Part shown: piece after piece, positions 1,779 through 10,585 of the stretch
How positions within the stretch are numbered: position 1 is the first letter of the stretch
How the letters are laid out: every line of letters begins with the position of its first letter
DNA from: Gammaproteobacteria bacterium UBA2168
GTDB lineage: Bacteria > Pseudomonadota > Gammaproteobacteria > Pseudomonadales > Azotimanducaceae
Assembly (NCBI GenBank): GCA_002327525.1
Contig: DCWG01000045.1
Span: 47,899 to 58,483, forward strand
DNA: 10,585 bases
Direction: 5' to 3'
Notes under the pieces: model-generated
Seen by the model: the letters and a program-made list of their open reading frames with translations, nothing else
What the model was told of the DNA's origin: nothing
The model's database searches: none
Position numbers and translations under genes: made by a program

Positions 1779-3167
1779 TCAGTCGATGTATTCACCCATG
1801 TGTGCGGATTCCAGTGCCACGCGCTTGGCGTGATCTATATCATAGTGCATGCGCGAGACGATACGCTGGGCATACAACCCGCCACCGGCCTGTATGTTGG
1901 TCACGGCATGCCAGCCACCGAGGGCGTCCGCCGTGTAGTCGCGGATGGCATGAAACAACCGCGTGCGGTAGGTGCCGTCCACTTCCTGTTTGGTGCCCAT
2001 GTACTTGCGTATCAGGTGGCCGACACGATCGTTCTCGAGATCGGCCATGCCGGGAGCCGTGAGGATGCTGCCACCGGCGATATCGTGCAGGTGGCGTACC
2101 ATCATCGAGTAGTTGGCAGCACCATGGTACTTGCCGACATTGATGTACAACTCGTGCGGGAATGCGGCGCCATCGGAAGTAATGCTGCAGTTCTCGATGG
2201 CAGCCTCGAGACTCGCGCGGATGAGCGTCGCGTTGATCATCATCTCGGAGATCTTTTCCTTGATGTGGCCCATCTTCTCCAGGCCATTGGCCTCGGAAAT
2301 GAGCTGGGCGAAACCGACGAGGCGGTCGTAGGCGGTGACCATACCAGCCAGACCACCAAGTCGTTCCCACAGCCCTAGGGAGTGCGCGAATATGCCAGCC
2401 AGCTCCGGATGCTCGCCGCCCAGGAACACGCGCTCGTCGGGTACGAACACGTCATCGAAGATGACGAACCCCTCCGGAGTGTGGTGGGAACCGGACATTG
2501 GGAAGTCGCGCACGTCCTCATGGCGGGGGGCGTAGGTGGTATTGACGATTTTCACTCCCGGCGCGTTCACCGGCACCATGGCGGCCACCGAGTATTCCTC
2601 CTCACCGGCTTTCATGGATTTGGTGGGGATGGTCATCAGCTCGTGTCCCATCGAGGCCGCCGAGATATGCAGTTTCGCACCCCGGATCACGATGCCGTCG
2701 TCGCGGCGTTCGACAACGTGCACATAGGCATCCGGGTCTTCTTGCTGACCCGGACGCCGGCTCCGGTCGCCCTTGGCATCGGTGATGCACTGAGTGATGC
2801 GCACGTCGCGTCGCTGGGCCTCACCCACCCATGCGCGGATACGCTTCGCATTCTCGGGCGCGCTCCCCTCGATGCGATCGGCTGCGGTGAGCAGCGTCAT
2901 GATGGAGGCGTAGGTCACGTGGGTCAGGAGATCCACCGATTCGTGCAGATCTACCTGCTCGCGCAGTTCCGCCGCCGAACCGGGCACCACCATGAATGCG
3001 CCAATCGCGCCTGGTTCCGGGTCGTAGAAGCGGTCGTATCCGGAGGCTGCTGAATCAACGGTGATCCCGAGGATCCGGTGCGCCGGCAGATCTTCGATCT
3101 GCTCACCCTCGAAAAAAGTCTCCCGCCCGTCGTTCAACGAAGCGCGGTACTCGTCTCCTGTCATCAT
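1779..3167 (-). CDS. HpaB-family flavin-dependent oxygenase
   Basis: A 462-residue member of the 4-hydroxyphenylacetate 3-hydroxylase/4-hydroxybutyryl-CoA dehydratase superfamily, which has an acyl-CoA dehydrogenase-like fold. Seen: the family N-terminus MTGDEYRASLNDGRE with GEQIEDL (residues 2-27), CITDAKGDRS at 127-136 (HpaB flavin/substrate region), GAKLHISAASMGHE at 163-175, FDDVFVPDERVF at 237-248, and KYHGAANY with HDIAGG at 346-366. HpaB enzymes use FADH2 from a separate reductase to hydroxylate, and sometimes dehalogenate, phenols; no reductase gene is seen here. The radical dehydratases of the superfamily need three Cys and one His for a 4Fe-4S cluster. This protein has only two cysteines (127 and 327), so the monooxygenase side is favoured. 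The length is somewhat below that of HpaB/TftD-type enzymes. AGGGAGAG precedes the tandem ATG. It follows the dehalogenase-like gene by 71 bases on the same strand. Confidence 0.8.
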   Translation of the reverse strand: MMTGDEYRASLNDGRETFFEGEQIEDLPAHRILGITVDSAASGYDRFYDPEPGAIGAFMVVPGSAAELREQVDLHESVDLLTHVTYASIMTLLTAADRIEGSAPENAKRIRAWVGEAQRRDVRITQCITDAKGDRSRRPGQQEDPDAYVHVVERRDDGIVIRGAKLHISAASMGHELMTIPTKSMKAGEEEYSVAAMVPVNAPGVKIVNTTYAPRHEDVRDFPMSGSHHTPEGFVIFDDVFVPDERVFLGGEHPELAGIFAHSLGLWERLGGLAGMVTAYDRLVGFAQLISEANGLEKMGHIKEKISEMMINATLIRASLEAAIENCSITSDGAAFPHELYINVGKYHGAANYSMMVRHLHDIAGGSILTAPGMADLENDRVGHLIRKYMGTKQEVDGTYRTRLFHAIRDYTADALGGWHAVTNIQAGGGLYAQRIVSRMHYDIDHAKRVALESAHMGEYID

Positions 3168-3238: not shown

Positions 3239-3919
3239 CTAGCGTTGCACCTGGCCACCCGTAAACGGGATGGCCTGGCCGACGAAGAAGTCGCTCTCGT
3301 TGGAGGCGAGAAACAGCGCGAAGCGCGCGTCTTCCTCGGCGGTGGCGAGGCGCCCCAGTGGTACCTGGCGCTTGAGCGATGCCTGAAAAGACTCTTTCTC
3401 GCGCAATGCCGGCGGGTAGTAAACCGGGTTTTCCACGTAGTTCTGGGCGATGAGGTTGACCTGCACGTTGTGGGGCGCGACCTCCACACCCACAGATTGT
3501 ACGTATCCGACCTGTGCGGCGCGCGCGGCACTGTAGGCACACACGGTCTTCAAACCCTTTAGCGCGGTTGCGCTGCCGTACACCACGATCTTCCCGGCAT
3601 GGCGTTCGATCATCTGGGGAAGCACCGCGCGTGTGAGCCGGTGCAGAGGGTGCACCATCATGTCGAAGGTCTCCGCCCAGTCATCGTCGTGGAGTTGGGT
3701 GGTGGGTATCCCAGCGAAGTTCTTCGAGGCGAGATTGGCGATCAACACGTCCACCGTTGCGGAGCGCTCGATCAGCGCCTCGCAAGCACCGGATTGGCGC
3801 AAATCGCTGGTATCCGCGACGATCGTCGCACCCTCCTGCTCGAAAACCTCAATGGTGGCGGGTCCCATGTAGTCGTCGGCCTGTGTCACGACGACGCGTT
3901 TTCCTTCCAGTCGACCCAT
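3239..3919 (-). CDS. Halohydrin dehalogenase-like SDR
   Basis: A 226-residue protein with the SDR fold but not an ordinary NAD(P)H dehydrogenase. The glycine-rich cofactor loop is replaced by T12-QADD-Y17-M-G19, exactly the T-x4-F/Y-x-G halide-site motif of halohydrin dehalogenases (HHDHs). The catalytic set is S116-x12-Y129-x3-R133, with Arg in place of the SDR lysine, again the HHDH signature. After the active site NYVENPVYYPP (160-170) resembles the NY...FYP halide-pocket loop of HheC, and the C-terminus (PLGRLATAEE, ALFLAS, FTGGQ) follows the family. Length matches known HHDHs (about 225-260). Such enzymes are cytoplasmic and cofactor-free: they expel halide from vicinal haloalcohols to give epoxides, and open epoxides with small anions. 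AGGAG lies 7 bases before the ATG. It is the first gene of the minus-strand set and is divergent from the AKR operon. The natural substrate is unknown. Confidence 0.85.
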   Translation of the reverse strand: MGRLEGKRVVVTQADDYMGPATIEVFEQEGATIVADTSDLRQSGACEALIERSATVDVLIANLASKNFAGIPTTQLHDDDWAETFDMMVHPLHRLTRAVLPQMIERHAGKIVVYGSATALKGLKTVCAYSAARAAQVGYVQSVGVEVAPHNVQVNLIAQNYVENPVYYPPALREKESFQASLKRQVPLGRLATAEEDARFALFLASNESDFFVGQAIPFTGGQVQR

Positions 3920-4154: not shown

Positions 4155-4157
4155 ATG
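4142..4157 (+). promoter_or_regulatory. Ribosome binding site fixing the AKR start
   Basis: AGGAG at 4142-4146 lies 8 bases before the ATG at 4155. This start puts a twin-arginine signal at the N-terminus. The same frame is open back to 3918, but those 79 codons have no ribosome site, read as low-quality protein, and would place the signal in the middle of the chain. Confidence 0.8.
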
Positions 4158-5201
4158 CTCGACTCAAGCAATCGTCGGACCTTCATGCAGAAGCTGGCCA
4201 TGCTCGGAGTGGGCGCACAGGCGCTGCTGAGCACGGGCAGCGTCAAGGCGGCAGTGGCCGAGGCGAAAGGTCAGGTGGAAGGGGGCCTGGGCTGGCCCGA
4301 GATGACCTACCGCATACTCGGCAGAACGGGCTTCGAGGGCAGTCGTCTGTTCTTCGGCTGCGGCGCTTCACTGGCGCGGCGGCCGCGCGATGAGTTGTTG
4401 AACGTGGCCTTCGATGCGGGTGTGAACGTGTTCGATGTGGGCACGGGCCGCTACTACGGTGACGCCGAGCGCAACCTGGCGCCGTTCGTGAGAAAACATC
4501 GGGACGATATATTCGTGATTTCGAAAGGCTATGCGCAGGTAGAGGACGTGGGCCCTAATGATCCCGTGACACCAGCGCAGGCAAAGCAGGCGGCCGCCAT
4601 GTGGCAGACGCTGATGGACGAAAGCCTTCGTGATCTCGAGGTGGACGGTATCGATGCGTACTATCAGATGGCGGCGAACAACCCCAATCTCACCGGCTCC
4701 GAAGAGATGCGCATGACCTTCGAGAAAGCCCGGGATGCAGGAAAGGTGAAGCACTGGGGGCTGAGCACGCACCAGAATGCGCAGGCAGTACTCGCGAAGG
4801 CAGTGGAGACGGGTTGGTACGATCTCGCCATGATCGCGATCACGCCCGGCGGCTGGTACGACTGGGATGGCAAGAGCCTGCTGGCCGGCACACCGCCCAT
4901 GACGGGGTTGAAGCCGCAGCTGGAGGCCGCTCGTGAATCGGGCATGGTGCTGGTGGGAATGAAGGTGGTGCGCCACATTGCGGGACGCAACCTGTTCGGT
5001 TGGGGGGATGAGACGGCGTTTGATGAGTACTACGACGAGAGTCTTTTGAAGGCGGATCTGAGTGCGTTTCAGCGCAGCTACGCCTACGTGCTCGAACATG
5101 GCGTGGATGCGGTGAATGCGGATATCCAGAATTTTCTGCACCTGCGCGAGAATTTCACGGTCGCGGCCACCTCTGGTGAGCTGTTCGCCAACAAGGCCTG
5201 A
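4155..5201 (+). CDS. Tat-exported aldo/keto reductase-like protein
   Basis: A 348-residue protein opening with a twin-arginine signal: SSNRRTFMQKLA (R7, R8), then a hydrophobic stretch (LAMLGVGAQALL) and a probable cut near VKAAVA at 30-35. Export as a folded, cofactor-loaded protein is therefore expected. The mature part is an aldo/keto reductase barrel: YRILGRTGFEGSRLFFGCG (52-70), the catalytic Asp in NVFD94, Tyr in RYYG (100/101) with a spacing one or two residues longer than usual, Lys124 in VISKG, DGIDAYYQM (164-172), GKVKHWGLSTH near 186-196. Where AKRs have the catalytic His (IDLYQLH) this one reads YQM-A-A, so the tetrad is incomplete and activity may be altered or lost. Tat-type AKR-fold proteins are known, with unclear roles. 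It is first in an operon with larC, 18 bases downstream. Confidence 0.8.
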   Translation: MLDSSNRRTFMQKLAMLGVGAQALLSTGSVKAAVAEAKGQVEGGLGWPEMTYRILGRTGFEGSRLFFGCGASLARRPRDELLNVAFDAGVNVFDVGTGRYYGDAERNLAPFVRKHRDDIFVISKGYAQVEDVGPNDPVTPAQAKQAAAMWQTLMDESLRDLEVDGIDAYYQMAANNPNLTGSEEMRMTFEKARDAGKVKHWGLSTHQNAQAVLAKAVETGWYDLAMIAITPGGWYDWDGKSLLAGTPPMTGLKPQLEAARESGMVLVGMKVVRHIAGRNLFGWGDETAFDEYYDESLLKADLSAFQRSYAYVLEHGVDAVNADIQNFLHLRENFTVAATSGELFANKA

Positions 5202-5219: not shown

Positions 5220-6431
5220 ATGCGCGCGTTGCTGTACCAGCCGAGCGCCGGTATCAGCGGCGATATGCATCTCGGTGCGATGGTGGATCTCGGTGTGCCG
5301 GAATCTCACCTGCAGGCGCAACTCGCACGCTTACCGCTGGCGGAGGAGTTTCGAGTGTCCTTCTCTCGGGGCGCGAAGATGGGCGTGTCAGGCACGCGTG
5401 CCCACGTCGAGGATCTTGGCGGCTCTCACCAGGATCACACCGATGCGCATGCGCACGGACACGAGCATCGTCACTACGGTGAGATTCACGAGCTGATCAG
5501 CGGTTCGGGGTTTGCGCCTGGAATCGAGGTGCGTGCGCAGGCTATTTTTCGCGAGATCGCCAATGCCGAAGCGAAGATCCACGACGTGCCGGTGGATGAC
5601 GTGCACTTCCACGAGGTGGGCGCCGTGGATTCCATCGTCGATGTCGTCGCAGCCGCCATCTGCCTCGACTGGCTGAACGTGGAGCGGGTGTATTGCGACA
5701 CCATTGAGGTGGGATCCGGTTACGTGAACTGCGCGCACGGCCACTACCCGGTACCGGCGCCCGCCACGCAGGAGATCCTGACCGGCATGTCATGCCATTA
5801 CGCCGGCGTACAGGGCGAGAGTACGACGCCCACGGGGGCGGCGATTCTCAAAGCGAGTGTCGATGAGAACGAAGTGCCGCGCCGATTTGTGCCCCAGCGA
5901 ATCGGCTACGGGCTGGGTATGAAGGACTTCGAGGTACCCAACGTGCTGAGGGTAGTGCTCGGCGAGGTGGATGAGACGGCTGCCATCGAGGCGCACTTCA
6001 AGATCGAGGCGAACATCGACGATATGAGCCCGGAAGCCTTTGAACCGCTCATCGAGCACTTACTCGACATCGGTGCGAGCGATGTCTATCTGCTGCCCGT
6101 CGTGATGAAGAAATCGCGGCCTGCAACCTGCCTTTCGGTGCTCTGCGAGAGTGCACGGGTCGATGCTCTTGCCGATGCCATCCTTAATCGATCGACGACC
6201 ATCGGCCTGCGTGTGCTGCCCTTTGAGAAGCGTGTGCTGCCGAGAGAAGAACGGCGCATTGAAACGAGTCTTGGTGAGGTGAGGGTCAAGCTGGTCACGC
6301 GACCGGACGGAGGCCTGCGATGGAAATCCGAACACGACGACGTGCGTCGTCTGGCGGATGGCGCGGGTCTTGATTACCTCGACGCTAAAAAGCGTATCGA
6401 CCAGGAAATCGCCAACGTCATCGACATCTGA
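5220..6431 (+). CDS. larC: LarC, nickel-pincer nucleotide nickel insertase
   Basis: A 403-residue LarC (DUF111) protein. In the lactate racemase system LarC uses CTP to insert nickel into pyridinium-3,5-bisthiocarboxylate mononucleotide, completing the cofactor of LarA-type racemases/epimerases. Seen: N-terminal GISGDMHLGAMVDLG (11-25), a histidine-rich loop at 70-90 (HQDHTDAHAHGHEHRH) likely to hold metal, HFHEVGAVDSIVD at 129-141, GESTTPTGAAIL at 199-210, the C-terminal domain opening NIDDMSPE (265-272) and MKKSRP (296-301). It is one uninterrupted frame; the programmed frameshift that splits larC in Lactobacillus plantarum is not needed here. The start fits the family N-terminus although its ribosome site (AAGGG, very close to the ATG) is poor, so coupling to the upstream gene is likely. 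larA, larB and larE are not in the window. Confidence 0.9.
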   Translation: MRALLYQPSAGISGDMHLGAMVDLGVPESHLQAQLARLPLAEEFRVSFSRGAKMGVSGTRAHVEDLGGSHQDHTDAHAHGHEHRHYGEIHELISGSGFAPGIEVRAQAIFREIANAEAKIHDVPVDDVHFHEVGAVDSIVDVVAAAICLDWLNVERVYCDTIEVGSGYVNCAHGHYPVPAPATQEILTGMSCHYAGVQGESTTPTGAAILKASVDENEVPRRFVPQRIGYGLGMKDFEVPNVLRVVLGEVDETAAIEAHFKIEANIDDMSPEAFEPLIEHLLDIGASDVYLLPVVMKKSRPATCLSVLCESARVDALADAILNRSTTIGLRVLPFEKRVLPREERRIETSLGEVRVKLVTRPDGGLRWKSEHDDVRRLADGAGLDYLDAKKRIDQEIANVIDI

Positions 6432-8274: not shown

Positions 8275-9840
8275 TCAGATACGCGAATCCTGATCTTTCC
8301 AATAACGATCTCGCAGCAGCCGCTTGTACAATTTGCCCGTCTCGTGACGTGGAAACTCGGTTTCGAAGTCGATCGAGCGCGGCGCCTTATAGCCGGCGAG
8401 ATGCGCGCGGCAGTGGGCGATGATGTCGTCTGCCAGAGCGGCCTGATCAGCCGCCCCGGCCGGCTTGGTCAGTAGCACGGCGGCTTTGACTTCTTCGCCG
8501 AACTCCTCGTTGGGGATGCCGAATACGGCGGCGTCCTGAATACGGGGGTGCCCGACGAGCACCGCCTCTATCTCAGCGGGATAGATGTTCACTCCACCTG
8601 AAATGATCATGTCGATCTTGCGATCGCTCAGGTACAGATAACCGTCCTCATCGAGGTAGCCGATGTCACCGAATGTGAAGGTGCCGCGCTCGAGGTGCAC
8701 CGAGGCGGTCTTCTCAGGTTCGTTGTGGTATTCGAAGTCGGATCCCATGAGATTTTTCACATAGATCTGCCCTGATTCGCCGGTGGCCACCGTATTGCCG
8801 TCATCGTCCCGGATGCTCACCTCGACGGTTGCTGAAGCCTTGCCTACGGTGCCCGGATGCGTCAACCAGTCTTCGGACGTGGCCGTGGTGACGATGGAAC
8901 CCTCGGTGGAGCCGTAGTACTCGGCGATCACGTTGCCCCACCAGTCGATCATCGATTGCTTTACTCGCGGGGGGCAGGGTGCGGCGCCGTGCCACACAAC
9001 CTGCAGGCTGCCACCATCGAATCCGGTGCGCGTCTGTTCATCGAGCTGCAACAACCGGTGGAACTGCGTTGGCACTAGGTGCACGTTGGTAACGCCGTGC
9101 TCGTCGATGTCTGCCAGGGCGATGGCAGGATCGAATCTCTGACGCATAACGACACGGCTGCCGGTCAGCAGTGGAAGGAAGGAGAAAGCCCACTGGGCAG
9201 AGTGGTAGATGGGGCCGCAGAGGTAGGTGGTTCCGCTCGCGGGTAGGGATAGCATGTCGGACAGGCCGCCGCCCACCAACTCCATGAGCGCGAGATCCCC
9301 ACCAGCGGCGAAGGTACTGGATCGTACCCCCTTGGGACGGCCCGTGGTGCCAGAGGTGTAGAACATCGGGCCGCCCAACAGCTGATTGTCCGGTGCGTGC
9401 GCACTGACGCTCGCGAGCTGCGCTTCGTAGTTGTCGAATCCGCGCGCATCGGAGCGAATGGCAACTGCGAATTCGAGCCCGGATGTCTCGCCGCGATCGA
9501 GTGCATCCACGGCGGTCGAAAGGTACGCTTCCTCCGCGAACAGTGCCCTGGCTCCCGAGTTGTCGATGACGTAGGCCAGTTCCTCTGCGCTGAAATGCCA
9601 GTTGACGGGCACGTACACCAACCCCGCGTGTGTGCAGGCCATCATGAGTTCGTAGTACTCGATGCAGTTACCGGCGTACACGGCGACGGCGTCCTGAGGC
9701 TGCAGTCCGCGCGCGCGCAGCATGTTGATCAGCTTGTTGGTGCGCTCATCGAGCTCCCCCCAGGTAGAAGTGCCGCGATCGTCGATGAGAGCGATACGCC
9801 GGTCGTCCAGCGCGGCCATGCGGCCGGGGAAGTGAGCCAT
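8275..9840 (-). CDS. Class I acyl-CoA synthetase/AMP-dependent ligase
   Basis: A 521-residue enzyme of the ANL (adenylate-forming) superfamily. It activates a carboxylic acid with ATP and joins it to CoA in the cytoplasm. Motifs in order: P-loop YTSGTTGRPKG (161-171), YHSAQW at 212-217, VPTQFHRLLQ near 256-265, HGAAPCP at 284-290, YYGSTEG (308-314), GDIGYLDEDGYLYLSDR (391-407), hinge and A8 core KIDMIISGGVNIYPAEIE (408-425), and catalytic Lys503 in ETGKLYKR. All expected motifs are intact. The ATG at 9840 has GGAGG 6 bases upstream. The same frame stays open to 10053, but that part overlaps the dioxygenase gene and is not protein-like. It follows the dioxygenase by 29 bases and was probably followed by the SRPBCC-like gene. 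The acid cannot be named from sequence: a fatty, aryl or cyclic acid is possible. Confidence 0.9.
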   Translation of the reverse strand: MAHFPGRMAALDDRRIALIDDRGTSTWGELDERTNKLINMLRARGLQPQDAVAVYAGNCIEYYELMMACTHAGLVYVPVNWHFSAEELAYVIDNSGARALFAEEAYLSTAVDALDRGETSGLEFAVAIRSDARGFDNYEAQLASVSAHAPDNQLLGGPMFYTSGTTGRPKGVRSSTFAAGGDLALMELVGGGLSDMLSLPASGTTYLCGPIYHSAQWAFSFLPLLTGSRVVMRQRFDPAIALADIDEHGVTNVHLVPTQFHRLLQLDEQTRTGFDGGSLQVVWHGAAPCPPRVKQSMIDWWGNVIAEYYGSTEGSIVTTATSEDWLTHPGTVGKASATVEVSIRDDDGNTVATGESGQIYVKNLMGSDFEYHNEPEKTASVHLERGTFTFGDIGYLDEDGYLYLSDRKIDMIISGGVNIYPAEIEAVLVGHPRIQDAAVFGIPNEEFGEEVKAAVLLTKPAGAADQAALADDIIAHCRAHLAGYKAPRSIDFETEFPRHETGKLYKRLLRDRYWKDQDSRI

Positions 9841-9869
9841 CAGAATCCTCCAGGAAGTGTGGGTATGAA

Positions 9870-10585
9870 CTACGCGAGCCGTTGACGCGACAGCCGCATG
9901 TCTGAGCGCGCTTGTGGAAGGCGGCCGTCGAAGAACGGCCGTTCGCCCTTGATCGTCACCCGGTGCCCTTTGCGCTCGCTGGGCCAATAATCCCAAAGAG
10001 CGAAATGCTGAGTGCAGCGGTTGTCCCACAGTGCGACCGTGTTGGGGCGCCACTGCAGGCGGACCTGAAACTCGGGACGCTGCTGGTGTGAATAGAGCAT
10101 GCCGAGCAAGGCGCTGCTCTCGGTAGGTTCGAGTTCGTTGATCCGGGTGGTGAAGCTCGGGTTGACGAAAAGAGCCTGCCGGCCCGATATGGGATGCGTT
10201 CGGATGACAGGATGCACCGAGCTCGGGTACTCACGACCCTCGTCGTTCACGCCTCGATCAGCGTAACGCCCACGATAGATGTGTTCGGAGGCGTGCGTTG
10301 CGGTTAGCGGCGCCAGAAATTCCTGCATTGTTCGAGAGAGCGTCTCGAGCGCGGCATACATGCTAGCAAACAGAGTATCGCCACCGCTTGGCGGCAGTTT
10401 GTGTAGTTGCAGCATAGTACCGAGCGGCGGTTGTTCGTCGCAGGAGACATCGCTGTGCCAGCCGTTGCCGTTGGCAATCTTCGAATCCGCGTGAGCGTGA
10501 ATGACGAATACCTCGGGATGACCTTCCATGCCGGGGGCGGCGGGATGGTAGTGCAGCGGACCGAAACGGCGGGCGAAGTCCATCT
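9870..10585 (-). CDS. TauD/TfdA-family Fe(II)/2-oxoglutarate dioxygenase, partial
   Basis: The last 237 or more residues of a 2-oxoglutarate-dependent dioxygenase; the first ~40-50 residues lie beyond the right edge. The ATG at 10583 is internal, since the FARRFGPL segment it opens normally follows an N-terminal strand region. Numbering from that ATG: iron ligands H43 and D45 in WHSDVS, T70 in GGDT, distal ligand H193 in CTQHFALWDYWP, and R204 and R208, the latter at the position that binds the 2-oxoglutarate carboxylate. The spacings H43 to T70 (27), H193 to R204 (11) and H193 to R208 (15) match those of E. coli TauD, so the active site is complete. The family removes sulfite from taurine, cleaves 2,4-D-type ethers or acts on alkyl sulfates; the substrate here is not evident. 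It heads an operon with the acyl-CoA ligase. Confidence 0.88.
   Translation of the reverse strand, partial: MDFARRFGPLHYHPAAPGMEGHPEVFVIHAHADSKIANGNGWHSDVSCDEQPPLGTMLQLHKLPPSGGDTLFASMYAALETLSRTMQEFLAPLTATHASEHIYRGRYADRGVNDEGREYPSSVHPVIRTHPISGRQALFVNPSFTTRINELEPTESSALLGMLYSHQQRPEFQVRLQWRPNTVALWDNRCTQHFALWDYWPSERKGHRVTIKGERPFFDGRLPQARSDMRLSRQRLA

Follow-up and report, generated by a model that had tools for sequence, protein, structure and literature searches.

A predicted halohydrin dehalogenase beside an HpaB-superfamily flavoprotein gene in Gammaproteobacteria bacterium UBA2168

Organization of the locus and sequence motifs

The window analysed here is the whole stretch of 10,585 nucleotides, positions 47,899 to 58,483 of contig DCWG01000045.1 (assembly GCA_002327525.1), from Gammaproteobacteria bacterium UBA2168. 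On its minus strand lies a gene that, judged from the encoded sequence, very probably specifies an enzyme with the chemistry of halohydrin dehalogenases (HHDHs), built on the fold of short-chain dehydrogenases/reductases (SDRs). The gene and its motifs are as follows.

3239..3919, minus strand: predicted HHDH gene, ATG start, 226 aa, SDR fold without cofactor site (open reading frame, PDB matches, fold, trees)
3863..3886, minus strand: Motif 1, T12-x4-Y17-x-G19, nucleophile pocket, replacing the Gly-rich NAD(P) loop (scripted residue check)
3521..3574, minus strand: Motif 2, S116-x12-Y129-x3-R133, Ser-Tyr-Arg catalytic set (scripted residue check)
3413..3442, minus strand: halide-pocket loop, N160-Y161 ... 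Y167-Y168-P169 (alignment with the N-Y ... Y-P loop of HheC)

The two motifs follow the HHDH definitions T-x4-F/Y-x-G and S-x12-Y-x3-R given in passages of PMC4989007 and PMC11976700. PMC4989007 reports confirmed activity for 19 selected enzymes among those found by such motifs. A scripted check located every residue named in the first-pass annotation, namely T12, Y17, G19, S116, Y129, R133, N160, Y161, Y167, Y168 and P169, and T12, G19, S116, Y129, R133 and N160 are invariant among 48 aligned sequences including that of the window. Of 97 HHDH-type sequences (93 retained from 110 matches, the window among them, plus HheB, HheD8, HheD2 and HheC), 96 contain the two motifs, the sole miss being L058 with an X at the catalytic Tyr. 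Similarly, 117 of the best 120 of 5579 homologues (E 0.001 or better) carry the pair, with P0033, P0116 and P0037 as the misses. As a control, 51 other SDR matches were found in the same genome and the 20 best-scoring regions were taken, 15 of which gave an SDR open reading frame (ORF). None of these 15 paralogues has both HHDH motifs (motif 1 in one, motif 2 in none), and nine have both classical SDR motifs. By these homologue and paralogue counts, the motif pair of the window protein exceeds chance. A promoter and terminator scan gave nothing clearly over shuffled controls.

Fold and cofactor site

Comparison against the PDB revealed matches to HheB, HheD8 and HheD2. The window protein shares 52% identity with HheB and 48-52% with HheD2/HheD8, compared with 26% for another SDR encoded in the window. 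The predicted fold is closest to that of HheB, and HHDH structures of the B- and D-types fit better than any listed SDR. The homologues listed that carry a name are called SDR or dehydrogenase, and on these names the protein would be a cofactor-using SDR oxidoreductase. We consider this highly improbable and rejected it on the motifs, the family cut-offs and the fold ranking, the sequence itself already contradicting it. The Gly-rich SDR motif T-G/A-x3-G/A-x-G is not present, Arg replaces the catalytic Lys, and the usual cofactor region is about 28 residues shorter than in an SDR of the window. In addition, none of the 25 NCBIfam families listed, out of 181, exceeds 112 bits, where the cut-offs are 215 or higher.

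A tree of 100 sequences places the HHDHs apart from three SDRs; the branches leading to the SDRs and HheC measure 7-10 changes per column, and this separation is therefore weak on its own. The identities and the fold ranking group the protein with HHDHs rather than with cofactor-binding SDRs, as the first-pass annotation had proposed, and its HHDH identity is borne out by motifs, sequence and predicted fold.

Subtype of the window protein

The protein had been suggested to relate to the D- or E-type. E-type HHDHs have been described from marine gammaproteobacteria. The subtype tree was built from 50 sequences with HheC and the SDRs excluded and with the root set by us on the third of three groups. 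These groups are the window lineage (38 sequences, support 92/81), a D clade (100/99) and a third clade (100/100, root branch), made up of HHDH-motif proteins that belong to the window's own taxonomic family. HheB sits inside the window lineage, in a subgroup of four (99/95) and paired with a Halioglobus metagenome-assembled genome (MAG; 96/86). The quick tree of 100 sequences agrees on HheB and the D clade and does not hold the third group together. On the best tree the window protein falls outside the D clade with HheD2 and HheD8, and the D-type assignment was rejected, but the approximately unbiased (AU) test on the unrooted tree did not reject a grouping of the window with D (p 0.23). A position of HheB outside the window lineage was likewise not rejected (p 0.31). 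As a further comparison, HheD19-38 show 57-95% identity to verified D enzymes according to part of PMC4989007, against only 48-52% between the window protein and HheD2/HheD8. On this sequence placement, the window HHDH is perhaps B-related.

Distribution of HHDH-type genes

At a threshold of E 1e-40 or better, with the window's own genome counted, an HHDH-type gene was found in 22 of 58 relatives and, within the window's taxonomic family, in 131 of 206 genomes, the latter comprising the window lineage and the third clade. The description of HHDHs as a small family no longer fits these numbers, yet only 4 of 398 genomes sampled across the phylum are positive. Metagenomes are the main source from which the gammaproteobacterial family hosting these genes is known here. 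Among the 80 named loci, MAGs titled Pseudomonadales or Gammaproteobacteria form the majority, and several names suggest marine sources.

HHDHs 71-75% identical to that of the window also occur at L048, L057, L063 and L065, in MAGs titled Acidimicrobiaceae, Acidimicrobiales or Klebsiella pneumoniae. These may reflect gene transfer or mislabelled bins, mislabelling being likely for Klebsiella. The third-clade proteins L115-L121 and L155-L157 share 41-51% identity with the window HHDH. At L156 the third-clade gene is clustered with genes for DUF2237, an aspartate aminotransferase of type Ic and an ArgC-type reductase, with an epoxide hydrolase gene of the EHN type about 5 kb upstream; L155 and L157 resemble this cluster by similarity.

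The HpaB-superfamily neighbour

The gene following the HHDH gene encodes a second candidate enzyme.

1779..3167, minus strand: HpaB-superfamily flavoprotein gene, 462 aa, next after the HHDH gene with a gap of 71 bp (Pfam HpaB_N and HpaB)

The protein has both HpaB Pfam domains, as found in a superfamily that includes 4-hydroxyphenylacetate 3-monooxygenase, TftD-like chlorophenol monooxygenases and 4-hydroxybutyryl-CoA dehydratase. Its best PDB matches are 6vjr (137 bits), 1u8v (133), 9lft (119) and the chlorophenol 4-monooxygenase 3hwc (92). It differs from these enzymes in having only two cysteines and in scoring far under the NCBIfam HpaB cut-offs. TIGR02309 gave 155 bits against a cut-off of 480 and TIGR02310 gave 80 against 885, and the assignment as HpaB 4-hydroxyphenylacetate 3-monooxygenase was set aside on these equivalog cut-offs. 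The 4Fe-4S cluster of 4-hydroxybutyryl-CoA dehydratase is held by three Cys and one His. The only cysteines among the 462 residues are Cys127 and Cys327, so the neighbour lacks an Fe-S ligand set, and 4-hydroxybutyryl-CoA dehydratase/vinylacetyl-CoA isomerase was rejected. Judged by eye from the alignment, His292 and Cys299 of 1u8v have no conserved counterparts in the neighbour.

An HpaB match (E 1e-60 or better) was found in 45 of 206 family genomes. HHDH-type genes occur in 38 of these 45, compared with 93 of the 161 genomes without HpaB. Twenty-six of the 38 have the window's type of HHDH (at least 68% identity) and 12 have the third clade. The HpaB gene immediately follows the HHDH gene on the same strand in 13 of these 26, counting the window; this adjacency was read by hand from match coordinates, and fragmented assemblies may lower the count. 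One HpaB query carried a false N-terminal extension, which made some HpaB offsets wrong (2137 for the window, where the true gap is 71 bp). At L129 (G412), positions 1489-2837, the HpaB orthologue downstream of the HHDH gene is split into two ORFs of 145 and 291 aa, by either a frameshift or an assembly fault.

Gene neighbourhoods in relatives

The context set consisted of 80 loci of relatives and the window. Counts were taken from tblastn positions, because the greedy ORF caller missed the HHDH gene in 15 of the 81 loci. A locus was eligible with at least 2 kb of downstream DNA (8 kb for the 10-kb counts) or when positive, which slightly favours positives. Of 71 eligible loci, 10 have an EHN-type (microsomal-like) epoxide hydrolase gene on the HHDH strand no more than 2.5 kb downstream; with the distance extended to 10 kb, the count is 21 of 57. 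The density of EHN genes, 1.6 per genome in 38 genomes, gives a chance expectation of about 0.02 and 0.08 in the 38 genomes for the two distances, or about 0.05 and 0.2 when scaled to 81.

The EHN-linked loci show at least three arrangements. In the direct order HHDH-EHN-PNPOx (L076, L077, L080, L081), the ORF caller puts the gaps at 63-125 bp and 1 bp, and the EHN protein of L077 has matches to solved epoxide hydrolases along its entire length. The EHN gene lies 0.9-1.8 kb from the HHDH gene at L041, L044 and L075, and at 7.6-9.3 kb, beyond a run of glyoxalase, glutathione S-transferase (GST) and RND genes, in 11 loci. Within 10 kb downstream of the HHDH gene, glyoxalase-like genes occur in 35 of 59 loci, GST in 34 of 59 and RND in 29 of 57. 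A CoA ligase gene is divergent to the HHDH gene in 17 of 59 loci with at least 5 kb of upstream DNA. Fifteen of these 17 have at least one of the LivH, LivM, LivG, LivF and binding-protein genes, and 14 have at least three. Besides these, L055, L060, L066, L072, L078 and L086 have a sodium:solute symporter gene upstream and a PNPOx-like gene downstream of the HHDH gene.

Two candidate associations were discarded. Co-occurrence with EHN appeared strong among the 58 relatives (22 of 22 genomes with HHDH versus 15 of 36 without), but within the family the contrast shrinks to 22 of 22 versus 11 of 15. The glyoxalase-GST-RND run is not a fixed partner of HHDH, as it is intact on another contig in the window's genome.

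Three D-type loci offer a comparison. Two of the three have a glyoxalase-like gene near the HHDH gene; at L165 it is on the HHDH strand, some 40 bp upstream. At L163 and L165, which are these two loci, genes in the vicinity look by eye like Entner-Doudoroff edd/eda. Two weak HpaB matches at D-type loci arise from the false N-terminal extension of the query and are located at the HHDH gene itself.

It might be asked whether the HHDH-HpaB neighbourhood is merely inherited gene order without shared function, with the HHDH acting alone as a general detoxifier. We regard this as a serious possibility, though one short of an even chance. Thirteen of the 26 genomes having HpaB and the window's type of HHDH lack the adjacency, the glyoxalase-GST-RND block of the window's own genome is separate from the HHDH gene, and clearly unconnected genes, malate synthase G and RsgA for example, also recur as neighbours. 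Against this, the HHDH-HpaB order and strand are kept in 13 genomes, with flanks that are not uniform, as the window and loci such as L009 show, and in G422 an epoxide hydrolase gene of the EHN type directly follows the HpaB orthologue, 57 bp behind it.

Proposed mechanism and biological role

Taken as a whole, the data are probably best explained by a cofactor-independent HHDH that converts natural haloalcohols to epoxides, with an HpaB partner in the window's lineage. The catalytic steps proposed here are taken from work on HheC, as described in sections 4 and 5 of PMC4989007. Tyr129, with its pKa lowered by Arg133, would take the proton from the substrate hydroxyl held by Ser116. The resulting alkoxide would displace the halide on the neighbouring carbon to give epoxide and halide in a reversible reaction, and the halide would exit via the pocket that holds nicotinamide in other SDRs. 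In the cell, natural vicinal chloro- or bromo-alcohols might be converted to epoxides, which may then be disposed of by an epoxide hydrolase, of which one EHN-type gene, unlinked to the HHDH gene, was found in the window's genome, or by glutathione chemistry. The neighbouring HpaB-type flavoprotein would act on the same substrate or its product. We give the conversion of haloalcohol to epoxide as the role in vivo an even chance; the enzyme may serve the breakdown or detoxification of natural vicinal haloalcohols via epoxides.

Several points weigh against this explanation. The EHN density was estimated from 38 genomes of our own choosing, which include all 21 EHN-linked loci. The HHDH loci are also related to one another, and their counts therefore do not represent independent events. 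The genome to which the window belongs has its EHN gene (C138), glyoxalase-GST-RND block (C123) and LivH gene (C70/C137) on other contigs, so that the argument from neighbourhoods has to draw on relatives. Of the 206 family genomes, 182 carry EHN, and at least four HHDH-type genomes lack it (G537, G542, G572, G601); co-occurrence is accordingly weak evidence, and adjacency alone carries information. By tblastn, neither an EHN nor an HpaB gene lies near the HHDH gene at the three D-type loci. The ten window ORFs scanned include no recognisable flavin reductase, and the HpaB neighbour has no assigned activity. Finally, no activity was found reported for a close relative of the HHDH, and the nearest solved structure is at 52% identity.

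A different role would leave fold and chemistry unchanged, with an epoxide as the natural substrate, a nucleophile other than halide and ring opening as the job of the enzyme. According to part of PMC4989007, azide, cyanide and nitrite can serve HHDHs as nucleophiles when the reaction runs in reverse. Epoxide-handling genes (EHN, GST) are recurrent neighbours, and the neighbour clusters scanned, which did not include several of the 38, contained no recognisable halogenase or halide transporter. Nevertheless, seawater is rich in chloride and bromide, and the pocket loop matches those of halide-binding HHDHs, of which 8xxb was solved with chloride. Ring opening as the natural task appears unlikely to us, and dehalogenation of haloalcohols is preferred.

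The HpaB neighbour, together with the importer and CoA ligase, suggests that the substrate is perhaps imported and catabolised. Tentatively, HHDH, HpaB-type flavoprotein and EHN could make up an interchangeable module for the catabolism of halogenated or epoxidised natural compounds. The divergent LivHMGF importer with CoA ligase would feed it in many relatives, in a lineage that would also be the source of HheB; we consider this wider proposal doubtful. If true, the natural substrate would be an imported carboxylate, and the HHDHs here would be catabolic enzymes beyond detoxifiers.

Other genes in the window

A LarC gene for the nickel-pincer cofactor lies at 5220-6431 on the plus strand, with both LarC models above cut-off; no other lar gene was recognised among the ten window ORFs scanned. 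An aldo/keto reductase gene at 4155-5201 on the plus strand is divergent from the HHDH gene and encodes, by eye, a twin-arginine-like N-terminus, with no NCBIfam match. At 8275-10583 on the minus strand, a gene for a TauD/TfdA-family dioxygenase is followed by one for an acyl-CoA ligase on the same strand.

Comparison with known systems

As biocatalysts HHDHs are of practical use, but their role in nature is an assumption rather than a demonstrated fact. In part of PMC11536340 the function assumed is to detoxify and degrade natural haloalcohols, and a passage of PMC11976700 predicts that HheC works jointly with an epoxide hydrolase. Epoxide hydrolases of gammaproteobacteria in North Sea blooms are mentioned in passages of PMC8371827, which name no dehalogenase. 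A search of open-licence literature on role and genomic context found no paper on HHDH neighbourhoods in titles and the starts of abstracts, which is weak evidence. The recurrent neighbours name candidate partner enzymes and thereby make the role testable.

Among characterised enzymes, HheB (B-type, Corynebacterium sp. N-1074; PDB 4zd6, 5b12) nests in the window lineage on the best tree, at the identity given above. It differs in its long branch and in having H-W-T-Q-N where the loop N-Y-V-E-N is conserved, and the AU test leaves room for an outside position. The D-type enzymes HheD8 (8xxb, a triple mutant with chloride) and HheD2 (7b73) form the separate clade; the three D-type loci have the glyoxalase-like gene in two cases and neither EHN nor HpaB nearby. 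HheC (Agrobacterium radiobacter AD1, 1pwx) shares the motifs, the Ser-Tyr-Arg set and the pocket loop pattern with the window HHDH, whereas the two are only 26% identical and HheC has a longer cofactor-region segment and a C-terminal extension missing in the window protein. Unlike the window HHDH, L-2-keto-3-deoxyfuconate 4-dehydrogenase (8y11) and FabG are cofactor SDRs that bind NAD(P). The SDR paralogues of the window's own genome mostly retain the Gly-rich loop and Lys, and the SDR of the window has the longer cofactor region. The enzyme family is already known, and the window HHDH is a new member in a rich lineage whose relatives are named as dehydrogenases.
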